Source of the DNA: Chloroflexota bacterium
GTDB taxonomy: Bacteria; Chloroflexota; Limnocylindria; Limnocylindrales; CSP1-4
DNA length: 41,972 nt
Assembly: GCA_005882635.1 (NCBI GenBank)
Contig: VBFG01000008.1
Span: 1 to 41,972 of the forward strand
Reading direction: 5' to 3'
Shown: positions 1,457 to 11,384 of the stretch, piece by piece
Layout of the letters: each line of letters opens with the position of its first letter
How positions within the stretch are numbered: position 1 is the first letter of the stretch
Translations under genes and position numbers: made by a program
Notes under the pieces: generated by a model
Database searches by the model: none
Told to the model about the DNA's origin: nothing
What the model saw: the letters and a program-made list of their open reading frames with translations, nothing else

Positions 1457-2434
1457 CTATCGCTTGGCGCGGACCGTCCTGGGCTCGGACACGAGCAGGA
1501 TCGACATGACGATACCGGCGAAGCCCGCGAGGAGGAGGCGCCATGGATCGTTCGTCGCCGCTGGTCGGCTCTCGAGCGTGTCCGTCGCCGGCGGGGTCGC
1601 CTGCGGCGTGCCGGTGACGGCTTGGACCTCACCAGTCGGGCTGGGGCTGCCAGTCGCCGGGAGCTCGCTGCCCGACGGCGGCGTGCTCGGCGGACTCGAC
1701 GGCGGGGTTGACGGGGGGGTCGACGGCGGCGTGGACGGCGGGGTCGACGGCGGCGTGCTCGGCGGCGACGACGGCGGCGTGCTCGGCGGCGTCGACGGCG
1801 GCGTGCTCGGCGGAGTCGACGGCGGGGTTGACGGTGGGGTCGACGGCGGCGTGCTCGGCGGGGTCGAGGGCGACTCCGTGCAATTCAGCGAATTGGTCTT
1901 GCTCGACGAGATCGAGGTCGTGTTGTCCGCGTTGACGGCGAACACGACGAGGACGCCACCAGAGCTGACCGTGAACGGCGACGTGACGCTGATCGACCAG
2001 TCGATGACGTCACCGCTGCTGTGATCCCCGGCCCCGAGGGTGATCGTCGCCTCGTTCTTCGAGACGTTCGCCTCTGGTGAGGCGTTCGAGCCGTTGTTCG
2101 GGACCATGTAGATGGTGATCGTGGATCCGACATCGAGCGTCTTCGTCAGGGTGAATTGACCGTCGATGTGACCGACATTCGTGCCGGTGCAGAACATCTC
2201 GGCGTTCTGATCCATGGTCGCGCTGCTGCCGGCGGCCGACAGGCTGCCGTCGACGGTCGCGTTCGATGTGGTGCCGTTGCCGGTCTGATCCAGACCGTTG
2301 TTGCCAGGGCCAGCTGCCGAGACGCCCGCCGGGGCGAGCACGGCGATGGAGAGCATGCCGGCGGCCAGCAACCAGCTGGCTCGCCTGAAGATCGAAGGCC
2401 GGTACGGGCGGTTGGTGGAACGACGGATGTTCAT
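1457..2434 (-). CDS. Secreted surface protein with (TPPS)n linker, LPATG-like motif and C-terminal TM plus basic tail
   Basis: ATG at 2434 gives signal peptide MNIRRSTNRPYRPSIFRRASWLLAAGMLSIAVLAPAGVSAA; long PPSTPPST repeat; ends DPWRLLLAGFAGIVMSILLVSEPRTVRAKR. Confidence 0.8.
   Translation of the reverse strand: MNIRRSTNRPYRPSIFRRASWLLAAGMLSIAVLAPAGVSAAGPGNNGLDQTGNGTTSNATVDGSLSAAGSSATMDQNAEMFCTGTNVGHIDGQFTLTKTLDVGSTITIYMVPNNGSNASPEANVSKNEATITLGAGDHSSGDVIDWSISVTSPFTVSSGGVLVVFAVNADNTTSISSSKTNSLNCTESPSTPPSTPPSTPPSTPPSTPPSTPPSTPPSTPPSSPPSTPPSTPPSTPPSTPPSTPPSSPPSTPPSGSELPATGSPSPTGEVQAVTGTPQATPPATDTLESRPAATNDPWRLLLAGFAGIVMSILLVSEPRTVRAKR
1680..1866. repeat. Degenerate 12-bp tandem repeat encoding TPPS units
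   Basis: Iterated GACGGCGGNGTNGACGG / GTGCTCGGCGGC units, translated on the minus strand as PPSTPPST... Confidence 0.85.
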
Positions 2435-2440
2435 GTCGGT

Positions 2441-2519
2441 GGTCCCCGAGGCGACTGGTCGACCACCTCGCGTCAGGAACGCGAGTGCGGACCAGGTCGT
2501 TCGCAAATCCTCGGGGACC
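2441..2519 (-). promoter_or_regulatory. Structured 5' leader immediately upstream of the TPPS-protein start codon
   Basis: Perfect 11-bp inverted repeat GGTCCCCGAGG (2441-2451) / CCTCGGGGACC (2509-2519) enclosing an inner CTCGCG/CGCGAG hairpin; its 3' arm ends 7 nt before the ATG at 2434. Confidence 0.5.
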
Positions 2520-2736
2520 GGACTGGTACTCGTCTAGGACCTTCGTACGGTTGCGACCACTCGCGACCTCACCGATCCCAACCTGCCGCCGAAACGCCGT
2601 TGTGAGCAGTCACCGAATCGGTCCTGACGACGCCTGGGACCTTCGGATGACGACCGGTCGCCAATGGTCTGACGACCGCTCCAAAGAAGCGATGATGACG
2701 CCGGCTCGAGCCGTCAGCGCGCCGCCTGGACGTAAC

Positions 2737-2782
2737 GGACGGGGCGCCCTGTCGAGGACGCCCCGTCCGGGTCTCGGGACCT
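2737..2782 (-). terminator. Hairpin downstream of the 897-aa DUF11 gene
   Basis: GGACGGGGCG (2737-2746) / CGCCCCGTCC (2759-2768), followed by a GGTC/GACC hairpin; same element seen at 5775. Confidence 0.6.
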
Positions 2783-2821
2783 GGTTGCTGACGACGGGGT
2801 CGCCGTCAGCGCTGGCGGAGC

Positions 2822-5515
2822 CTAGCGACGGCGATCCTTGCGCTGGTTCCGGAGATGATCCGGAGCCGGCGTCAGGACGCCGATCGTCAGGGCCAGCCCG
2901 CCGACGACGAGAAGGATGAGCATCAGGGCGAAGCCCGGATTGCCCGTTGCCGTCTGCGACGAGAGGCTGTCGGTCGGTGGCGGGGTGATCGCCGGTGGCG
3001 GGGTCAGCGCCTCGGGCGGAGGCAGGACCCCGACGGGGACCTCGCCCTCATCCGGTGGCGTCTGATCGGACTGGATGGTGGCGACGTTGTCGACGATGCC
3101 GATCTCCGCGGCGGCCTCGAGGACCTTGACCTGGAAGGTCACGGAACCGTCGGCCGGGTCAGGCAGCGTCGCCGCCTTCCACGTGAGGGTCTTCGTCGTG
3201 GCGTCGTAGCTGTCGAACGTGAAGTTCGCGTCGCCCGTCGCCGAGCCCGTGATGTACTCCAGGCCTGCCGGGACCGGGTCCGCGATGACCGCGTTGGTCA
3301 GGACGCCGGTTCCGCTGTAGTGCAGGGCGTAGGTCAGCGTGTCGCCGATCTTCGCCTGGGCGAGACCGTTGAGGGGGTTGTTCGGATTGTTCGGATCCTG
3401 GAACGTGCCGCCCGTATTCCCGGAGACCGACTTGTCGATCACCAGGGTCGAGGTGCAGACCTCGATCGTGGCGCTGCCCTGGTTGTTGCCGAGGGCGCCG
3501 GCGGGCTCGTTTGTCGACGTGGCCGACGCGGTGTTCGGCAGCGTCTCGCAGTTGCCTTCCGGCGAGACCCCGTCCGTGCTCGCCGTGACCGTGATGGCCA
3601 CCGACGCGCCAGGAGCGAGATCGCCCAGGTCGCAGTGGAGGATGCCGCTCGTGATCGAGCAGCCGGCATGCGAGACCTGCCAGGGGAGCCCACCCGGGAG
3701 CGGGTCGTTGAGCTCGACGTCCCTGGCCGTGCCTGTGCCGATGTTGCTGACCGTGATCGTGAACGACGCCGTGTCGCCGACCCGGATCTGCGCTTCCGCC
3801 GCGGACTTCACGACCTTGACGTCCGGGCAGTTGACGGCCATCGACGCGCCGTCGCTCGCCTCGCCGTCATTCGTCGAGGTGATGTTCCCGGTGTTGTTGA
3901 CGGTTCCGCAGCTGGCGGGCGTGGTGCCACTCGTGACGTGGACCGTGCCGCTGACAGCCGTGTTGCCGCTGATCGAGCCGACGTTGCAGGTGAGGACCTG
4001 GCTGCCGACGGCTCCGCTGATCGCGCACGTGGAGCCGCTCCCGGTCGATGCATCGATCGACCAGTTCAGGCCCGCCGCGCCGGGCAGGTTGTCAGTGACG
4101 ACGACGCCCGTCGCCTTGCCGGCGCCGGAGTTGCCCCAGCTCAGGGTGAATCCAACCGGGTCACCCGCGCTGACGGAAGCACCGTCGGCGGTCTTGTCGA
4201 TCGTGACCTGGGCCGGGATGACCTGGAAGCATTCGGTGGTCTTGTTGGTGTGGCTCGCCGCGAGGTACTTGGAGCCCTCCGCCGGCGTGTAGTCGACGCG
4301 GAAGCAATAGAACCCGGCGTTGGCCGGCGTGTACGACGCCGACGTCGCATTGCCGCCACTGAGCGTCTTCGTCCCGCCGACCGCGGTCCCACCGCTCGAG
4401 CAGTCCGGGGCCGCCGAGGCGTTGAAGCAGACGGAGAAGTCAACCGTGCCCTCGACGGTCCCCTTGGAGCCGGTGAGGTGCGCGAAGTCCTGAACGGACT
4501 CGCCCTTGTTGATCGTGCCGAGCGAGCCGAGTGACTGGCCGTCCTGCTGGACCTGGGTCGCAATCGTCGGCGGCTTGCAGAAGGAGAACGTCCCGCCGGC
4601 GAAGTCCGACAGCGTGGCGTCGACCGCCTGCGAGGAGCGGGTCTCGGCGATGAACGACGTGAAGCAGCCCTGATCGAGGCCGAGGGCCGTCAGGTTGATG
4701 CCGCCTTCGAAGAACTCGCCGGCCAGGAAGTCGTGCGAGCCCGACTTGTCCGTGAAGGCCCACGGCGCAGACTCGGTGTCGGTGTTCGTCGCGGCGCACG
4801 CGACGTCCGTCGCGCCGGCCGTGGTGCAGGGGACGCCACTCGCGACCGTGTGGAGGTGGGTGGCGGCATCGCCGCCCGAGGCGACCCAGCTGTAGACGTT
4901 GAAGTCGGCGACGCCGCCGCCGTTCGTGTAGTCGGCCAGGACGAGGACGTCGCCGACCGTGTGGGCCCCGCTGAACGGGCTGCCGGGCGCGGCGCCGCTG
5001 CCGGTCGGTCCGACCTGGCCCTGGAGGAACCAGAACCCGACGAAGTTGTCGCCACTGGCATCGAACTTGTTCATGCCGAAGTAGACGATGGTGTCGCCGG
5101 CCGTGTCCGGATTCACGCCCGTGTAGGAGGCCGCGAAGGCGTGGGTGATGTCGTTCTTGTCCTGAACGCCCCCGACCTTCCACAGCCAGTCGGTCGTGTT
5201 GTGGTCGTCCTTCGACGAGCCGCCCGTGAAGATGTCATCCCCGGAGTTCACCGCATCGGTGATGAACTCGGTCGCCTCGGCAGACGACGTCCCGGCGTGG
5301 ACTTTGTCCCAGTCGTCGCCCGGCACGGCAGCACTGCTGACCGCGTTGCCGTCGAGCTCGAACAGGCCCTCGTCGTGGACGGCCATGGCTGCCGGGGCCA
5401 GCGCGAAGGCGGCGTATTGCAGCAGGACCGACAGGATGAAGAGCGCCGACCAGGACAGCGCGAGTCGCTTCCTGGTCTTCGGGCTGACAAGCCCGAGGGC
5501 TCCCCGCGATGTCAT
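2822..5515 (-). CDS. DUF11 repeat-containing secreted surface protein (3 repeat modules)
   Basis: N-terminal signal/TM, LFELDGNA motif, repeated DKTADGASVSAGDPVGFTLSWGNSG...VTDNLPG modules, C-terminal TM and RKDRRR tail. Confidence 0.85.
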   Translation of the reverse strand: MTSRGALGLVSPKTRKRLALSWSALFILSVLLQYAAFALAPAAMAVHDEGLFELDGNAVSSAAVPGDDWDKVHAGTSSAEATEFITDAVNSGDDIFTGGSSKDDHNTTDWLWKVGGVQDKNDITHAFAASYTGVNPDTAGDTIVYFGMNKFDASGDNFVGFWFLQGQVGPTGSGAAPGSPFSGAHTVGDVLVLADYTNGGGVADFNVYSWVASGGDAATHLHTVASGVPCTTAGATDVACAATNTDTESAPWAFTDKSGSHDFLAGEFFEGGINLTALGLDQGCFTSFIAETRSSQAVDATLSDFAGGTFSFCKPPTIATQVQQDGQSLGSLGTINKGESVQDFAHLTGSKGTVEGTVDFSVCFNASAAPDCSSGGTAVGGTKTLSGGNATSASYTPANAGFYCFRVDYTPAEGSKYLAASHTNKTTECFQVIPAQVTIDKTADGASVSAGDPVGFTLSWGNSGAGKATGVVVTDNLPGAAGLNWSIDASTGSGSTCAISGAVGSQVLTCNVGSISGNTAVSGTVHVTSGTTPASCGTVNNTGNITSTNDGEASDGASMAVNCPDVKVVKSAAEAQIRVGDTASFTITVSNIGTGTARDVELNDPLPGGLPWQVSHAGCSITSGILHCDLGDLAPGASVAITVTASTDGVSPEGNCETLPNTASATSTNEPAGALGNNQGSATIEVCTSTLVIDKSVSGNTGGTFQDPNNPNNPLNGLAQAKIGDTLTYALHYSGTGVLTNAVIADPVPAGLEYITGSATGDANFTFDSYDATTKTLTWKAATLPDPADGSVTFQVKVLEAAAEIGIVDNVATIQSDQTPPDEGEVPVGVLPPPEALTPPPAITPPPTDSLSSQTATGNPGFALMLILLVVGGLALTIGVLTPAPDHLRNQRKDRRR

Positions 5516-5668
5516 GGAGTGTCCCTCCCTGTTGTGACCATCGGTCGATGAGTTCTCCGAACGTTCGCCAGGCGCTCCCCCTGGAGCGTCCCCTCAGCGC
5601 CGGTCCCTGGGCACCACGGACCGACGGCTGTCCTGCCGGGTGGCGAAGAGTACCGGCGGCAGGGGGAG

Positions 5669-5700
5669 AAAGGTACTAGTGAGAACGACCTATTACTAGT
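5669..5700 (-). promoter_or_regulatory. Promoter/operator-like element shared by the DUF11 genes
   Basis: aaaggtactagt (5669-5680) plus a second tactagt (5694-5700); the same 12-mer occurs at 11385-11396 upstream of the paralogue. Confidence 0.45.
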
Positions 5701-5774
5701 CTTGTTCGGCGGATTCCGGGCAATTCCCTCCGTGAGGTCGCGGTCGCGGTGCAGTTCCACACCGGAGGGAGCGA

Positions 5775-5816
5775 ACGGGGCGTCCACGAAGGACGCCCCG
5801 TCCGGGTCTCGGGGAC
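5775..5816 (-). terminator. Double hairpin downstream of the 1784-aa DUF11 gene
   Basis: ACGGGGCGTCC-ACGAA-GGACGCCCCGT (11-bp stem), then GGGTC/GACCC; about 24 nt identical to the element at 2756-2779. Confidence 0.6.
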
Positions 5817-5857
5817 CCTGGCTCGGTTCCGACGGGACCGGGTCGCTGGCCGTCCGG

Positions 5858-8800
5858 CTAGCGTCCGCGCTCCCGCCGCCGGACCCGCTCCGGAACCGGG
5901 GTGATGAACCCGACTCCGAGGGCGAGGCCGGCCACGCCGAGGAGGATGAGCATCAGGGCGAAGCCCGGGTTGCTCGTCGAGGTCTGCGGCGTGAAAGTGT
6001 CGGTGGGCGGAGGCGTCAGCCCGAGCGGCGGGGCGAGGACGGCCACCGACGCGGTGTCGCTGTCCGTCAGCTCGGCACCGCTCGGGGTGTGGCCGACGAT
6101 CGTTGCGGTGTTGATGAGCGGTTGAGGCTGCTCGGGCGCGCTGGCGAGGACCTTCACGTCGTAGGTGACGTCCCCACTCGCCGGATCCGGCAGGCCGTTG
6201 GCCGCCTTCCACGTGAGGGTGCGGGTGGCGCTGTTGTAGCTGTCGAACGTGAAGTTCGCGTCGCCCGCTGCGGTCCCGGTGACGTACTCGAGACCCACGG
6301 GCAGGACGTCGGTGATCGTCGCGTCTTCGATCGGCCCGGCACTCGTGAAGTGCAGGGTGTAGTGGAGGGTGTCACCGATCTTCGCGGACGGGACGCCGAG
6401 GTCCGGATCCGTGCCGTTGGTGTTGCCCGTGAACGACTTCTCGATCGAGAGAGCCGAGCACAGGACGGTGATGGAGGCATCGTCGCTGTTGTTGCCGAGG
6501 ACGTCGTCGCCCTCGTTGCTCGAGCTGGCCGAGGCGACGTTCGGAATGACGTGGACGAGCGTTTCGCCGCAGTCGACGTTACCCGTCTCCGGATCCCCGG
6601 ACGTCGGGGCCGTGAGCGTGATCGTCACGGTCGCATCGGGTGCCATGTCGCCGAGGTCGCATGTCAGGACACCGCCGGCGATGTCGCACGCCGCGTTGTC
6701 GACCTCCCAGTCGAAGCCCGCCGGGAGCGTGTCCTTGAGCACGACGTCATTGGCCGTGCCATTGCCGATGTTCGTGACCGTGATCGTGTAGACCAGGTCC
6801 CCGCCGACCGAGATCGGCGTGTTCGGCGCGTCCTTCACGACCTCGATGTCGGGGCACGCGATGGTAATGGACGCGTCGTCGGAGTTGTTGCCGGTGTTCG
6901 CCTGGACCTCGTTCGAGGCGGCGACGACCGCCACGTTCGGGATGACGGCGCAGTTGTCGCCGGTCGTCGGCGCGGTCAGGGTGACCGTCCGGGACTCGCC
7001 GGGCGCCATCGTCCCGAAGTTGCAGCTCAGGACGTCCGGGTTCGGGACCGTGTTGATCGAGCAGTCGGCCGCATCGGCGCCGCCGAGCGTCCACGTGTAG
7101 CCGGCCGGCAGGTTGTCGGTCAGCGTCACGTTGTAGGCGGTTCCGATCCCTTGGGCGCCGGAGTTGTGGACAACGATCGTGAAGACGGCGTTGTCGCCGG
7201 CGTTGACGGTCCCGCCGTCCGGGGTCTTCTGGACCGACACGTCGGGGCACTGGACGGTGACCGACGACGAGTCGTCGTCGCCGCCGTCATTGCCCGTCGT
7301 CACCACGGCCGTGTTGTTCACGACGCCGCAGTTGGCTGCCGTCGTCGTGCCATGGATGTGGACGCTGAAGGACGATCCAGGCGCCATCAGGGCCGCGTCG
7401 CACGTCAGGACGTCCGGGTTCGGTGCAGCGTTGATCGAGCAGGACGCCGTGGCGGTCCCGGTCGTGGCGTCGGCAGTCCAGGTGATCCCGGCCGGCAGGT
7501 TGTCCGTGACGTGGACGGCCGTGGCGTTGCCGAGGCCGGTGTTCGTCACCGTGATCGTGAACCCGATCGGGTCGCCGGCGCTGATGGTGGCCTTGTCGGC
7601 GGTCTTCGTGACGACGATCGCCGGGCAGTCGACCGTGATGTCGGCGCTGGCCGAGTTCGGGAACTGGTCGTCCGGGACCTCGTTGGAGGCCGAGACCGTG
7701 ACGACGTTATGGAGCGTGCCGCAGTTGGCCGCGACGGTCTCGCCACTGATGTGGAGCGTGATCGACGCCGCCGGGGCGAGGCTCGCGAAGTCGCACGTCA
7801 GGGCCGTCCCGACGATGCTGCAGCCGGCGACCGCCGGATCGAGCGTCCAGGTCACGCCGGCCGGCAGCGTGTCGGCGACGTGGACGTTGAACGCCGTTCC
7901 GGGGCCATGGTTGGTGATCACCACGGTGAAGGCCGCGGTGTCGCCGGCGCTGATCGTGCCGTCGTCCGCCGTCTTCACGACCCCGATATCGGGGCAGTTG
8001 ACGTCGATCGACGCACTGTCGGAGTTATCGCTCTGGTCGGCGACCGGCTCGTTCGACGCAGCCACGACTGCCGTGTTGTCGAGACCGGCGCAATCGCCGT
8101 TGTCCGTCAACCCGGAGATGTGAATCGTGACCGAGGCGCCCGATGCCAGCGTGGCAAACGAGCAGTCGAGGGTGTTGCTGACGATCGCGCAGCCGGCGAC
8201 CGCGGGATTGATCGTCCAGTTGACGCCGCTCGGGAGCGGGTCGTGGAGCGTCACGTTCTTGGCCGTCCCGATGCCGTCGTTGCTGACGACGATCGTGAAC
8301 GCGGCCACCTCGCCGGCGTTGATCGTGCCGGAGTCGGCCGTCTTGAGGACGTGGACGTCCGGGCAGTTCACCACGATGTCCGCGTCGTCGGAATTCGAGA
8401 ACTGATCCGTGTCCGTGTTCTCGTTCGACGCGGCGACCGTGACGTCGTTGTGGATGCTCGGGCACTCGGCGGCGACCGACGCCTTGCTGACCGTGATCGT
8501 CCGGGTGGCGCCGCTGGCGACCGCCCCGAAGTTGCAGGTCAGGAGGTTGGAGGCGCTGATCGAGCACGAGGCCGCGTTCGCCCCACCCAGCGTCCAGGTG
8601 CCGGATGGCAGCTGGTCGGAGAGAGTGACGTTGGCAGCCGCGCCCGGGCCATGGTTGGTCAGGACGATCGTGAACGTCGCCGTGTCACCGGCACTGAGCG
8701 GGCCGTTGCCCGTCTTCACGACCTCGAGGTCCGGGCACTGGACCGTGACCGACGCGCTGGCTTCCGCCGACCCGTCGTTCGTGGTCGTGATGTGGCCGGT

Positions 8801-11179
8801 GTTGTTGACGACCGCGCAGCTCGCGGACGTCGTGCCGCTGACGATGTGGACCGTGCCGCTGACGGCCGTGTTGCCTGGGATGTCGCCGACGTTGCAGGTC
8901 AGGACCTGGCTGCCGTCCGGGCCGCTGATCGAACAGGTCGATCCGGTCCCGGTGGAGCTCTCGATGGTCCAGTGCAGGCCGGCCGTGCCGGGCAGGTTGT
9001 CGCTGACGACGGCGCCGGTCGCCTTGCCGCCGGTGCTGTTGCCCCAGGTCAGGGTGAACCCGATCTGGGAGCCCGCGCTGACCGGGCTGGTGTCAGCCGT
9101 CTTGCCGATCGTGACCGTCGCGCACAGGACGGTGACCGAGCCGTCGTCGGAGTTGTTGCCGAGGACGTTGGACGGCTCGTTCGTCGCCGCCGCCGAGGCG
9201 GTGTTGTTGACCGGACCGCAGTTGTCCTTGGAGGTGACGCCGCTGACCTGGTAGGTCTTCGACGCGCCGCTGGCCAGCGTGCCGACGGTGCAGTTGAGGA
9301 CCTGGCTGCCGTCCGCGCCCGTGAGAGTGCAGTCGTTCTCCGCCTCGGTCCAGTGGATACCGGCCGGAAGGCTGTCGGTGAGGGTCACGCCCGTGGCCGT
9401 GCCCGCGCCGATGTTTTCGACCTTGATCGACCAGGTGATCGTTCCACCGGCGTCGACGTTCCCGCCGTCCGGGGTCTTCGTGACCTTGATGTCGGGGCAC
9501 TGGACGACGACGGACGCGCTGTCGCTGTCGGTCCCGTCATTGGTCGTGGCGACGCTGGCCGTGTTGTTCACGGTGCCGCAGTCGGCGGCGTCGGTCGTGC
9601 CATGGATGTGGACGCTGAAGCTGGCATCGGCGGCGAGGCTCGCCTTCGTGCAGGTCAGGACGTCCGGGTTGGGGGCCGTGTTGATCGAACAGCTCGCGCC
9701 GTTCGTGGCCGGATCGGCCGTCCAGACGATGCCGGCGGGCAACGGGTCGTTGACCGAGACGCCGAGCGTCGTCTGCGTGCCGTTGTTGTGGACGGTGATG
9801 TCGAACCCGATCGCCGCGCCGGCGCTGACCGGTCCGACCGGGTTGGCCGTCTTCGTGATCTCGATGGTCGCCGGGGCGACAAAGAAGCACTCGGTGTCGG
9901 TGTCGGTGTGTTTGCCAGCCAGATACTGCGAGTTCGCGTCGGGCGAGTATTCCGCCCGCCAGCAGTACCAGCCTGATGCCGCCGCGGTCAGGCCCACGGT
10001 GTAGTCGGCCGACTCGGCGGTGCCGCCGTTCGCGCTCGTGGTGACGGCGACCGCGCCGCCGACCTGGGTCCCGCCGGTCGAGCAGTCGGGCTTCGAGGCG
10101 GCCGGACCACAGAGGAAGAACTTGACGCTGCCGGAGGCCGGCCCGTCATTGCCGCTCAGCGTCGCGGTGTCATGGACCGTCGCGCCGAAGTCGGCGGTGG
10201 CCTTGCTCGAGGTCGTCTCGATCGTCGGCGGAACGCACGTGCTGAGGCTGCCGAGAGCAAAGTCCTTCAGCTGTGCGTCTGTCTCCTGGGACGAGCGGGT
10301 CTCGGCCAGGAACGTGCCGAAGCACGGCGGCTGGCCGCCGAACATGTCGCTCAGGTTGATGCCGCCCTCGAAGAACTGGCCGGGGGCGAAGTTGTGCTCG
10401 CCGTCCTTGTTCGTGAAGGACCACGGCGCGGTCGCAGTCGCCGCGTTCGTGACGGCGCAGATGTCGAAGGTGCCGTCAGCGACGTCGCAGGCCGCGCCCG
10501 CGGCGACGAGGTTCAGATGGCTGCCGTTCGTGGCCGGGTCGCAGTTGCCCTTTGCGGCGATGTTGGCCCCGCCGCTGGCGCTGTCCCACTCGTATGCACA
10601 GACGAGGTCCACGACGCCGCCGTTCGTGTACTGGCTGAGGATCAGGACGTCGCCGTTCTTGTGCTGGCCGGTGAAGTCGCCATTGGCGATCCCGACGTTG
10701 TTCTGGAAGAACCAGAAACCGATCTGGGCGTCGCCTTCGTTGTCGAACCGGTCAGCTCCGAAGTAGACCCAGGTCTCACCGTTCAACTGGTAGACAGCCG
10801 CGTAGGCGTCGGTGAGCTCGTCCTTGTCCGGGACAGCGTTCGACGTGATGGCCCAGCTCGGGATGTCGTTCTCGTCCTTCGAGCCGCCGGTCGTGAAATA
10901 CGTGCTGTCGTTGGCCGAAGCCTCGCTCGCCTGACCCGCAAAGAACTGGTCGGCCGAGCCCTCGGCGCCGTTCTCCCAGTCGGCTCCCGGAGCGGGCTGA
11001 TCGATCGCGTTGCCGTCGAGCTCGAAGAGGCCCGTGTTATGGGCAGCGAGTGTCGGCGACGCAACGGCGAAGCTGAAGTACTGCATCAGCAGCGAAAGCA
11101 CAAAGAGCGCGCTCCACGACAGAGCCAGGCCCCGTCGCTTGCGCGCACTCATGACGTGCCACAGACCCCGAGACGACAT
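5858..11179 (-). CDS. Large DUF11 repeat-containing secreted surface protein (about 10 repeat modules)
   Basis: 1784-aa ORF (upstream alternative start 11212); LFELDGNA N-terminal region; serial KTAD...SAGDxxxFTIxVxNxGxGTAxxVxLxDxLPAGxxW modules; C-terminal TM and RRRERGR. Confidence 0.88.
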   Translation of the reverse strand: MSSRGLWHVMSARKRRGLALSWSALFVLSLLMQYFSFAVASPTLAAHNTGLFELDGNAIDQPAPGADWENGAEGSADQFFAGQASEASANDSTYFTTGGSKDENDIPSWAITSNAVPDKDELTDAYAAVYQLNGETWVYFGADRFDNEGDAQIGFWFFQNNVGIANGDFTGQHKNGDVLILSQYTNGGVVDLVCAYEWDSASGGANIAAKGNCDPATNGSHLNLVAAGAACDVADGTFDICAVTNAATATAPWSFTNKDGEHNFAPGQFFEGGINLSDMFGGQPPCFGTFLAETRSSQETDAQLKDFALGSLSTCVPPTIETTSSKATADFGATVHDTATLSGNDGPASGSVKFFLCGPAASKPDCSTGGTQVGGAVAVTTSANGGTAESADYTVGLTAAASGWYCWRAEYSPDANSQYLAGKHTDTDTECFFVAPATIEITKTANPVGPVSAGAAIGFDITVHNNGTQTTLGVSVNDPLPAGIVWTADPATNGASCSINTAPNPDVLTCTKASLAADASFSVHIHGTTDAADCGTVNNTASVATTNDGTDSDSASVVVQCPDIKVTKTPDGGNVDAGGTITWSIKVENIGAGTATGVTLTDSLPAGIHWTEAENDCTLTGADGSQVLNCTVGTLASGASKTYQVSGVTSKDNCGPVNNTASAAATNEPSNVLGNNSDDGSVTVLCATVTIGKTADTSPVSAGSQIGFTLTWGNSTGGKATGAVVSDNLPGTAGLHWTIESSTGTGSTCSISGPDGSQVLTCNVGDIPGNTAVSGTVHIVSGTTSASCAVVNNTGHITTTNDGSAEASASVTVQCPDLEVVKTGNGPLSAGDTATFTIVLTNHGPGAAANVTLSDQLPSGTWTLGGANAASCSISASNLLTCNFGAVASGATRTITVSKASVAAECPSIHNDVTVAASNENTDTDQFSNSDDADIVVNCPDVHVLKTADSGTINAGEVAAFTIVVSNDGIGTAKNVTLHDPLPSGVNWTINPAVAGCAIVSNTLDCSFATLASGASVTIHISGLTDNGDCAGLDNTAVVAASNEPVADQSDNSDSASIDVNCPDIGVVKTADDGTISAGDTAAFTVVITNHGPGTAFNVHVADTLPAGVTWTLDPAVAGCSIVGTALTCDFASLAPAASITLHISGETVAANCGTLHNVVTVSASNEVPDDQFPNSASADITVDCPAIVVTKTADKATISAGDPIGFTITVTNTGLGNATAVHVTDNLPAGITWTADATTGTATASCSINAAPNPDVLTCDAALMAPGSSFSVHIHGTTTAANCGVVNNTAVVTTGNDGGDDDSSSVTVQCPDVSVQKTPDGGTVNAGDNAVFTIVVHNSGAQGIGTAYNVTLTDNLPAGYTWTLGGADAADCSINTVPNPDVLSCNFGTMAPGESRTVTLTAPTTGDNCAVIPNVAVVAASNEVQANTGNNSDDASITIACPDIEVVKDAPNTPISVGGDLVYTITVTNIGNGTANDVVLKDTLPAGFDWEVDNAACDIAGGVLTCDLGDMAPDATVTITLTAPTSGDPETGNVDCGETLVHVIPNVASASSSNEGDDVLGNNSDDASITVLCSALSIEKSFTGNTNGTDPDLGVPSAKIGDTLHYTLHFTSAGPIEDATITDVLPVGLEYVTGTAAGDANFTFDSYNSATRTLTWKAANGLPDPASGDVTYDVKVLASAPEQPQPLINTATIVGHTPSGAELTDSDTASVAVLAPPLGLTPPPTDTFTPQTSTSNPGFALMLILLGVAGLALGVGFITPVPERVRRRERGR

Positions 11180-11384
11180 GTCTAAGACCTCCCGATCCCC
11201 GAGACGAACCACACGGTCGATAAGACCTCGCAGAGGTAGGTGGACCCCCGACGTGACGGTTGCCCCCGCGGAGGTGCCGAAATAGGACCCCTGTCCCGAT
11301 ACCGGCTCGGTGCCGGTACTCCTGGCCCCCGGTGGGGCACCTCCCTGAAGGGAGTGCGGGCATGCTACGGCGGTACGGGGCGGA

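Follow-up and report, generated by a model that had tools for sequence, protein, structure and literature searches.

The three surface proteins encoded in the window (the whole stretch of 41,972 nucleotides analysed here) share a real, modular C-terminal tail, probably a sorting signal, that lies outside the described CTERM families. Judged from the aligned tails, its core is a variant of LPXTG in which P often replaces L, and D, S or A replaces G. We estimate at roughly two in three the probability that this tail is a sortase-type signal processed by a serine-type sortase, the enzyme encoded on contig C194 of the same genome.

All three proteins are encoded on the minus strand (Table 1), and their C-termini match exactly the ends quoted in an earlier note on this DNA, which had proposed the shared tail. 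Protein 1 is composed of a putative hydrophobic N-terminal signal, a small domain, a stalk of TPPS repeats (81% P/T/S) and the sorting tail; a Pfam search with it gave no match. Proteins 2 and 3 are paralogues, each bearing an RrgB-like isopeptide-type domain close to its C-terminal end. Protein 3 extends well past the region originally noted (1457-6010), so that only its tail lies inside. By eye, the N-terminal hydrophobic segments of all three proteins have AxA-like ends and resemble signal peptides. In each tail, T-P-P-[PA]-T-D-[TS] is followed after about 13 residues by a hydrophobic helix with a basic end. Elsewhere in the window, ORFs between 15640 and 25335 resemble imidazolonepropionase, formiminotransferase and histidine ammonia-lyase, again by eye, and suggest a histidine-degradation cluster.

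Table 1. Positions of the tailed proteins, their tails and the candidate sortase-fold enzyme.
Feature	Position	Strand	Description	Basis
Protein 1	1457-2506	-	349-aa ORF; likely start is the ATG near 2434	
Sorting tail of protein 1	1460-1597	-	Core TPPATDT 1577-1597; hydrophobic helix ~1490-1537; basic end	37-tail profile match, E=2.3e-19; alignment
Protein 2	2822-5515	-	897-aa DUF11-repeat surface protein	TIGR01451, TIGR04226, PF01345
Sorting tail of protein 2	2825-2986	-	Core TPPPTDS 2966-2986; helix ~2873-2932; basic end	Profile matches
Protein 3	5858-11212	-	1784-aa DUF11-repeat surface protein, 10 DUF11 stretches	Pfam/NCBIfam
Sorting tail of protein 3	5861-6016	-	Core TPPPTDT 5996-6016; helix ~5903-5962; basic end	Profile matches
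Divergent sortase-fold protein	G000:C194:2356-3078 (outside the window)		240 aa	Profile from relatives

Searching the genome and its relatives with a profile of the tails, as the earlier note had proposed, recovered further tailed proteins. The profile of the three window tails found two on contig C73 of the same genome (E=2.9e-4 and 0.005), and a later profile found a sixth on contig C17 (E=4.8e-14), so that the genome encodes at least three tailed proteins besides those of the window. A profile of five tails from this genome matched tails in other species with E-values down to 5e-18. Since the three-tail and five-tail profiles recover tails elsewhere in the genome and in other species, the resemblance of the window tails goes beyond chance. 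Within a single family of Ca. Limnocylindrales (Chloroflexota) the matches ran into hundreds. A 37-tail profile matched 98 of the 107 genomes of the window's family one or more times at E<=0.05; at E<=1e-3, among the matches listed, the tail was present in 90/107 family genomes vs 3/70 other genomes of the class. A pattern search with CCNCCNACNGAYNCN in the window's own genome returned mostly frame noise and was discarded.

To describe the signature we used 78 distinct tails, pooled from all sequences retrieved. Their core reads T-[P 57, L 18]-P-[P, A, N, S]-T-[D 60, S 12, A 4]-[T, A, S, G], with the second Pro and the Thr invariant (78/78 each). D occupies the fifth position of the pentapeptide in 77% of the tails and G in none. 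The motif is separated from the helix by 12-15 residues of variable sequence, and the net charge of the C-terminal end ranges from +2 to +7. After removal of the tail, 65 of the proteins were long enough to compare and fell into 27 similarity clusters. A constant motif on otherwise unrelated proteins argues for reading the tail as a sorting signal, and the tripartite layout of motif, helix and basic end that the earlier note had described thus holds across the family. Its signature TDT...NP does not: the conserved core is xPxT[D/S/A] instead, and N(P/D), present in the three window proteins and a DUF11 subfamily, is not shared by the family at large. The LPATG of protein 1, which the note had already considered too distant from the helix, is indeed too far away to serve as the signal and is missing from proteins 2 and 3. 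We also rejected as primary motif a looser (A/E)TG-x-P box that precedes the PxTD core by no more than 18 residues (e.g. window positions 1598-1639, minus strand), as it is present in only 35 of the 78 tails.

None of the Pfam and NCBIfam anchor or CTERM models, GlyGly-CTERM and MYXO-CTERM included, matched the tails above its cut-off; the best match to the LPXTG model PF00746 remained below threshold (E 0.05-0.08). Judged by these models, the tail is not part of an already defined CTERM family. The suggestion that it is an undescribed anchor or processing signal survives in so far as no curated family claims it, although its core is an LPXTG-like variant. The similarity to LPXTG signals comprises a pentapeptide with fixed P and T, a short spacer, a helix and a basic end, placed C-terminally on stalked, probably secreted surface proteins; unlike in LPXTG, the first position is P more often than L (L in 18/78) and the fifth is D, S or A. 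A screen has already listed LPxTD among sortase motifs and made use of it (PMC9210967).

A helix with a basic end would suffice to anchor a protein, and the stalks are P/T-rich and encoded by high-GC DNA, as exemplified by protein 1. The tail might accordingly be an uncut membrane anchor, its PxTD core being a stalk remnant spread by gene-end recombination. We regard this as quite unlikely, as a plain anchor would require no such motif, whereas Pro and Thr are invariant in all 78 tails and keep their distance from the helix across a variable spacer.

The processing enzyme favoured here was overlooked by the standard model. The Pfam sortase model PF04203 gave no match in the window's own genome and weak matches in most relatives, nearly all of which have L-Q-T-S in place of the sortase T-L-x-T-C. 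These L-Q-T-S proteins were gathered by PF04203, not by a pattern requiring Ser, and a profile of 32 of them yielded a single match in the own genome (C194:2608-3075, E=1.9e-63), exposing the apparent absence of a sortase as a false negative. In the C194 enzyme, a hydrophobic N-terminal segment and a linker rich in P, S and T precede the catalytic domain; NCBIfam sortase models did not match the main enzyme subfamily. The 32-protein profile detects the enzyme family in 96 of the 107 genomes of the window's family (33/34 of the better genomes), and the 80 enzyme loci obtained from a scan of named genomes carry, with few exceptions, the label Chloroflexi or Ca. Limnocylindrales.

An AlphaFold model of the enzyme (pLDDT 90.8, pTM 0.88) places His51 directly behind one strand, Ser120 where a second strand ends and Lys129 at the beginning of the strand that follows (residue numbers by counting). 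All 50 of the 50 PDB matches listed by Foldseek for this model are sortases (best E=3e-8, TM 0.66-0.70), and the enzyme family, as modelled, has a sortase fold. Alignment to SrtA puts the enzyme's Ser on the catalytic Cys and its Lys on the Arg. His51 and Gln-Thr-Ser120-Glu are invariant in 79/79 aligned domains, as are Cys28 and Cys156 (numbering of alignment A7). Ser occupies the catalytic Cys position in 32/32, 79/79 and 119/124 aligned domains with a residue there, the count of the 79-domain set being biased by a scan that relied in part on a pattern with LQTSEG. In the 119 Ser-type domains the Arg position holds Lys (96), Arg (14), Gly (8) or Glu (1); eight enzymes (L283, L256, L250, L241, L240, L252, L247, L259) show a GYTG-type insertion behind LQTSEGP, and neither Lys nor Arg occupies their aligned position. 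In a tree the Ser types group together, with the Cys types outside; the root and several branches are weak. This topology is compatible with Cys having been replaced by Ser once, at the base of the class.

Tail and enzyme were compared across 301 genomes that sample the phylum evenly, 20 from the window's family and 281 others. Tails (E<=1e-3) were present in 19/20 family genomes vs 7/281 others, the latter all weak matches, and the enzyme subfamily (E<1e-50) in the same 19 family genomes and in 0/281 others. The single sampled family member lacking the enzyme (G019, 93% complete) also lacks tails. Over all 301 genomes the association gives a Fisher value of 1e-24, which overstates the evidence since the genomes are related; inside the family it is not significant (p=0.23) and carries no information, both features being nearly universal in draft MAGs. 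The two distributions match at the level of the family, and common descent could account for this. The tail is the likely substrate of the C194-type enzyme. Of the co-occurring proteases that the earlier note had envisaged, a Ser-type sortase-fold protein with matching family-level distribution was found, but exosortase is absent (PF09721: 0 in the own genome, 0/37 over the cut-off). In small-genome relatives (f2: G037-G055; L290, L291, L293) a divergent Ser enzyme with LQTSET occurs in about half of the cases. No tail was detected in f2 genomes, whose substrates may bear another signal.

The Ser enzymes of f2 without tails would fit a scheme where the tail is a sorting signal for another protease (a Cys sortase, a rhomboid or a protease of unknown type), with the Ser sortases either lacking activity or acting on something else. 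In addition, a small number of family genomes encode Cys-type sortases (L088, L105, L107, L130), and some family members carry other Ser types. Yet the window's own genome contains neither a Cys sortase nor another PF04203 match nor an exosortase, and Cys types are rare (5 His-Cys vs 119 His-Ser domains among 124 aligned ORFs) while the Ser subfamily tracks the tail. The invariant His and Ser also speak against decay, and on the basis of these searches for sortases and exosortases we consider processing by another protease unlikely.

The main enzyme gene is surrounded by a fixed set of housekeeping genes and does not adjoin tailed proteins; none with a PxTD-type tail is encoded within 10 kb of it. 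Housekeeping sortases are usually encoded away from their substrates, in such neighbourhoods. Direct linkage is seen in two genomes: in G036 a TPPATDT-tailed ORF immediately precedes a Ser-type enzyme gene, and in G025 a protein with an MPDTAT core, a helix and RRR lies between enzyme genes. The order nuoN - tlpA - enzyme - corA - MFS - CDP-alcohol phosphatidyltransferase - ino1 is conserved in many loci (L168 97-8326; L197-L276; gene names assigned by eye). This arrangement raises the possibility that the sortase-like enzyme links proteins to lipid, in the manner of archaeosortases, rather than to peptidoglycan, with the CDP-alcohol phosphatidyltransferase and inositol-1-phosphate synthase-like neighbours supplying the lipid. 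Such a linkage appears very improbable to us: the neighbourhood also includes unrelated housekeeping genes and may be plain synteny, and nothing connects the lipid genes with the tail.

For processing by the serine-type sortase we propose the following scheme. The hydrophobic helix and basic end would hold the secreted protein in the membrane, where the membrane-anchored C194 enzyme would recognise the core [P/L]-P-x-T-[D/S/A]. By analogy with sortases, cleavage would occur after the motif Thr, with Ser as putative nucleophile assisted by His and Lys/Arg, and the new C-terminus would be passed to an amine, presumably of the cell envelope. Exchange of Cys for Ser often inactivates cysteine enzymes, and the Ser-type enzymes could for this reason be inactive; the strict conservation of His, Ser and their surroundings across the whole family, in turn, argues that they function. 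We give about even odds to Ser acting as catalytic nucleophile, and the wider proposition that surface-protein sorting in Limnocylindrales depends on active serine-type sortases, with the Cys nucleophile replaced by Ser and a matching PPxTD signal, is likewise an even bet. The tail-less f2 genomes with Ser enzymes, the eight GYTG members devoid of Lys/Arg and the additional sortases of some family members count against the serine-sortase reading.

In comparison with sortases A-F (PF04203), the enzyme shares the fold, the N-terminal membrane segment, a His that follows a core strand and a nucleophile position where a core strand ends. It differs in that all main-family members have Ser instead of Cys and most have Lys instead of Arg, and in the extra invariant Cys pair. 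The His-Cys-Arg triad, by which sortases are defined, has been described as the sole residues absolutely conserved in all sortases (PMC1569441). As the fold is that of a sortase while the Cys is lacking, we refer to the enzyme as a sortase-fold serine-type variant and not as a member of classes A-F, and this variant probably works like a sortase. Non-LPXTG signals with a dedicated sortase class are known from class D/LPxTA and class E/LAxTG (PMC5148588); those sortases use a Cys nucleophile, and their signals differ from the xPxT[D/S/A] core of the present tails, in which D predominates. PEP-CTERM/exosortase systems are similarly tripartite, serve many substrates with one enzyme and are recognisable by phylogenetic profiling, but the tails lack a PEP motif, no exosortase was found and the enzymes are unrelated in fold. 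A search of the open-access literature turned up nothing relevant on serine sortases or on sortases of Limnocylindria, which is no proof that such reports are lacking.

If the serine-sortase reading is true, a family-wide Ser at the Cys position together with a distinct matching signal would change the definition of a sortase. It would also allow surface proteins to be predicted in a widespread uncultured group, and would point to a ligase chemistry that tolerates oxidation. Should the enzymes be inactive, their strict conservation would need an explanation of its own.

Further sortases were seen in the class. A second group with Ser for Cys keeps the Arg (LTLQTSTSYY..PRF or LTLQTSTGP..PRF) and is found in other families of the class (loci L089, L090-L093, L134, L292, L294-L296, L298-L300). 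In L134 (G017), a protein ending in LPSTST, a helix and a basic end is encoded at 6805-7455, between a Cys and a Ser sortase.
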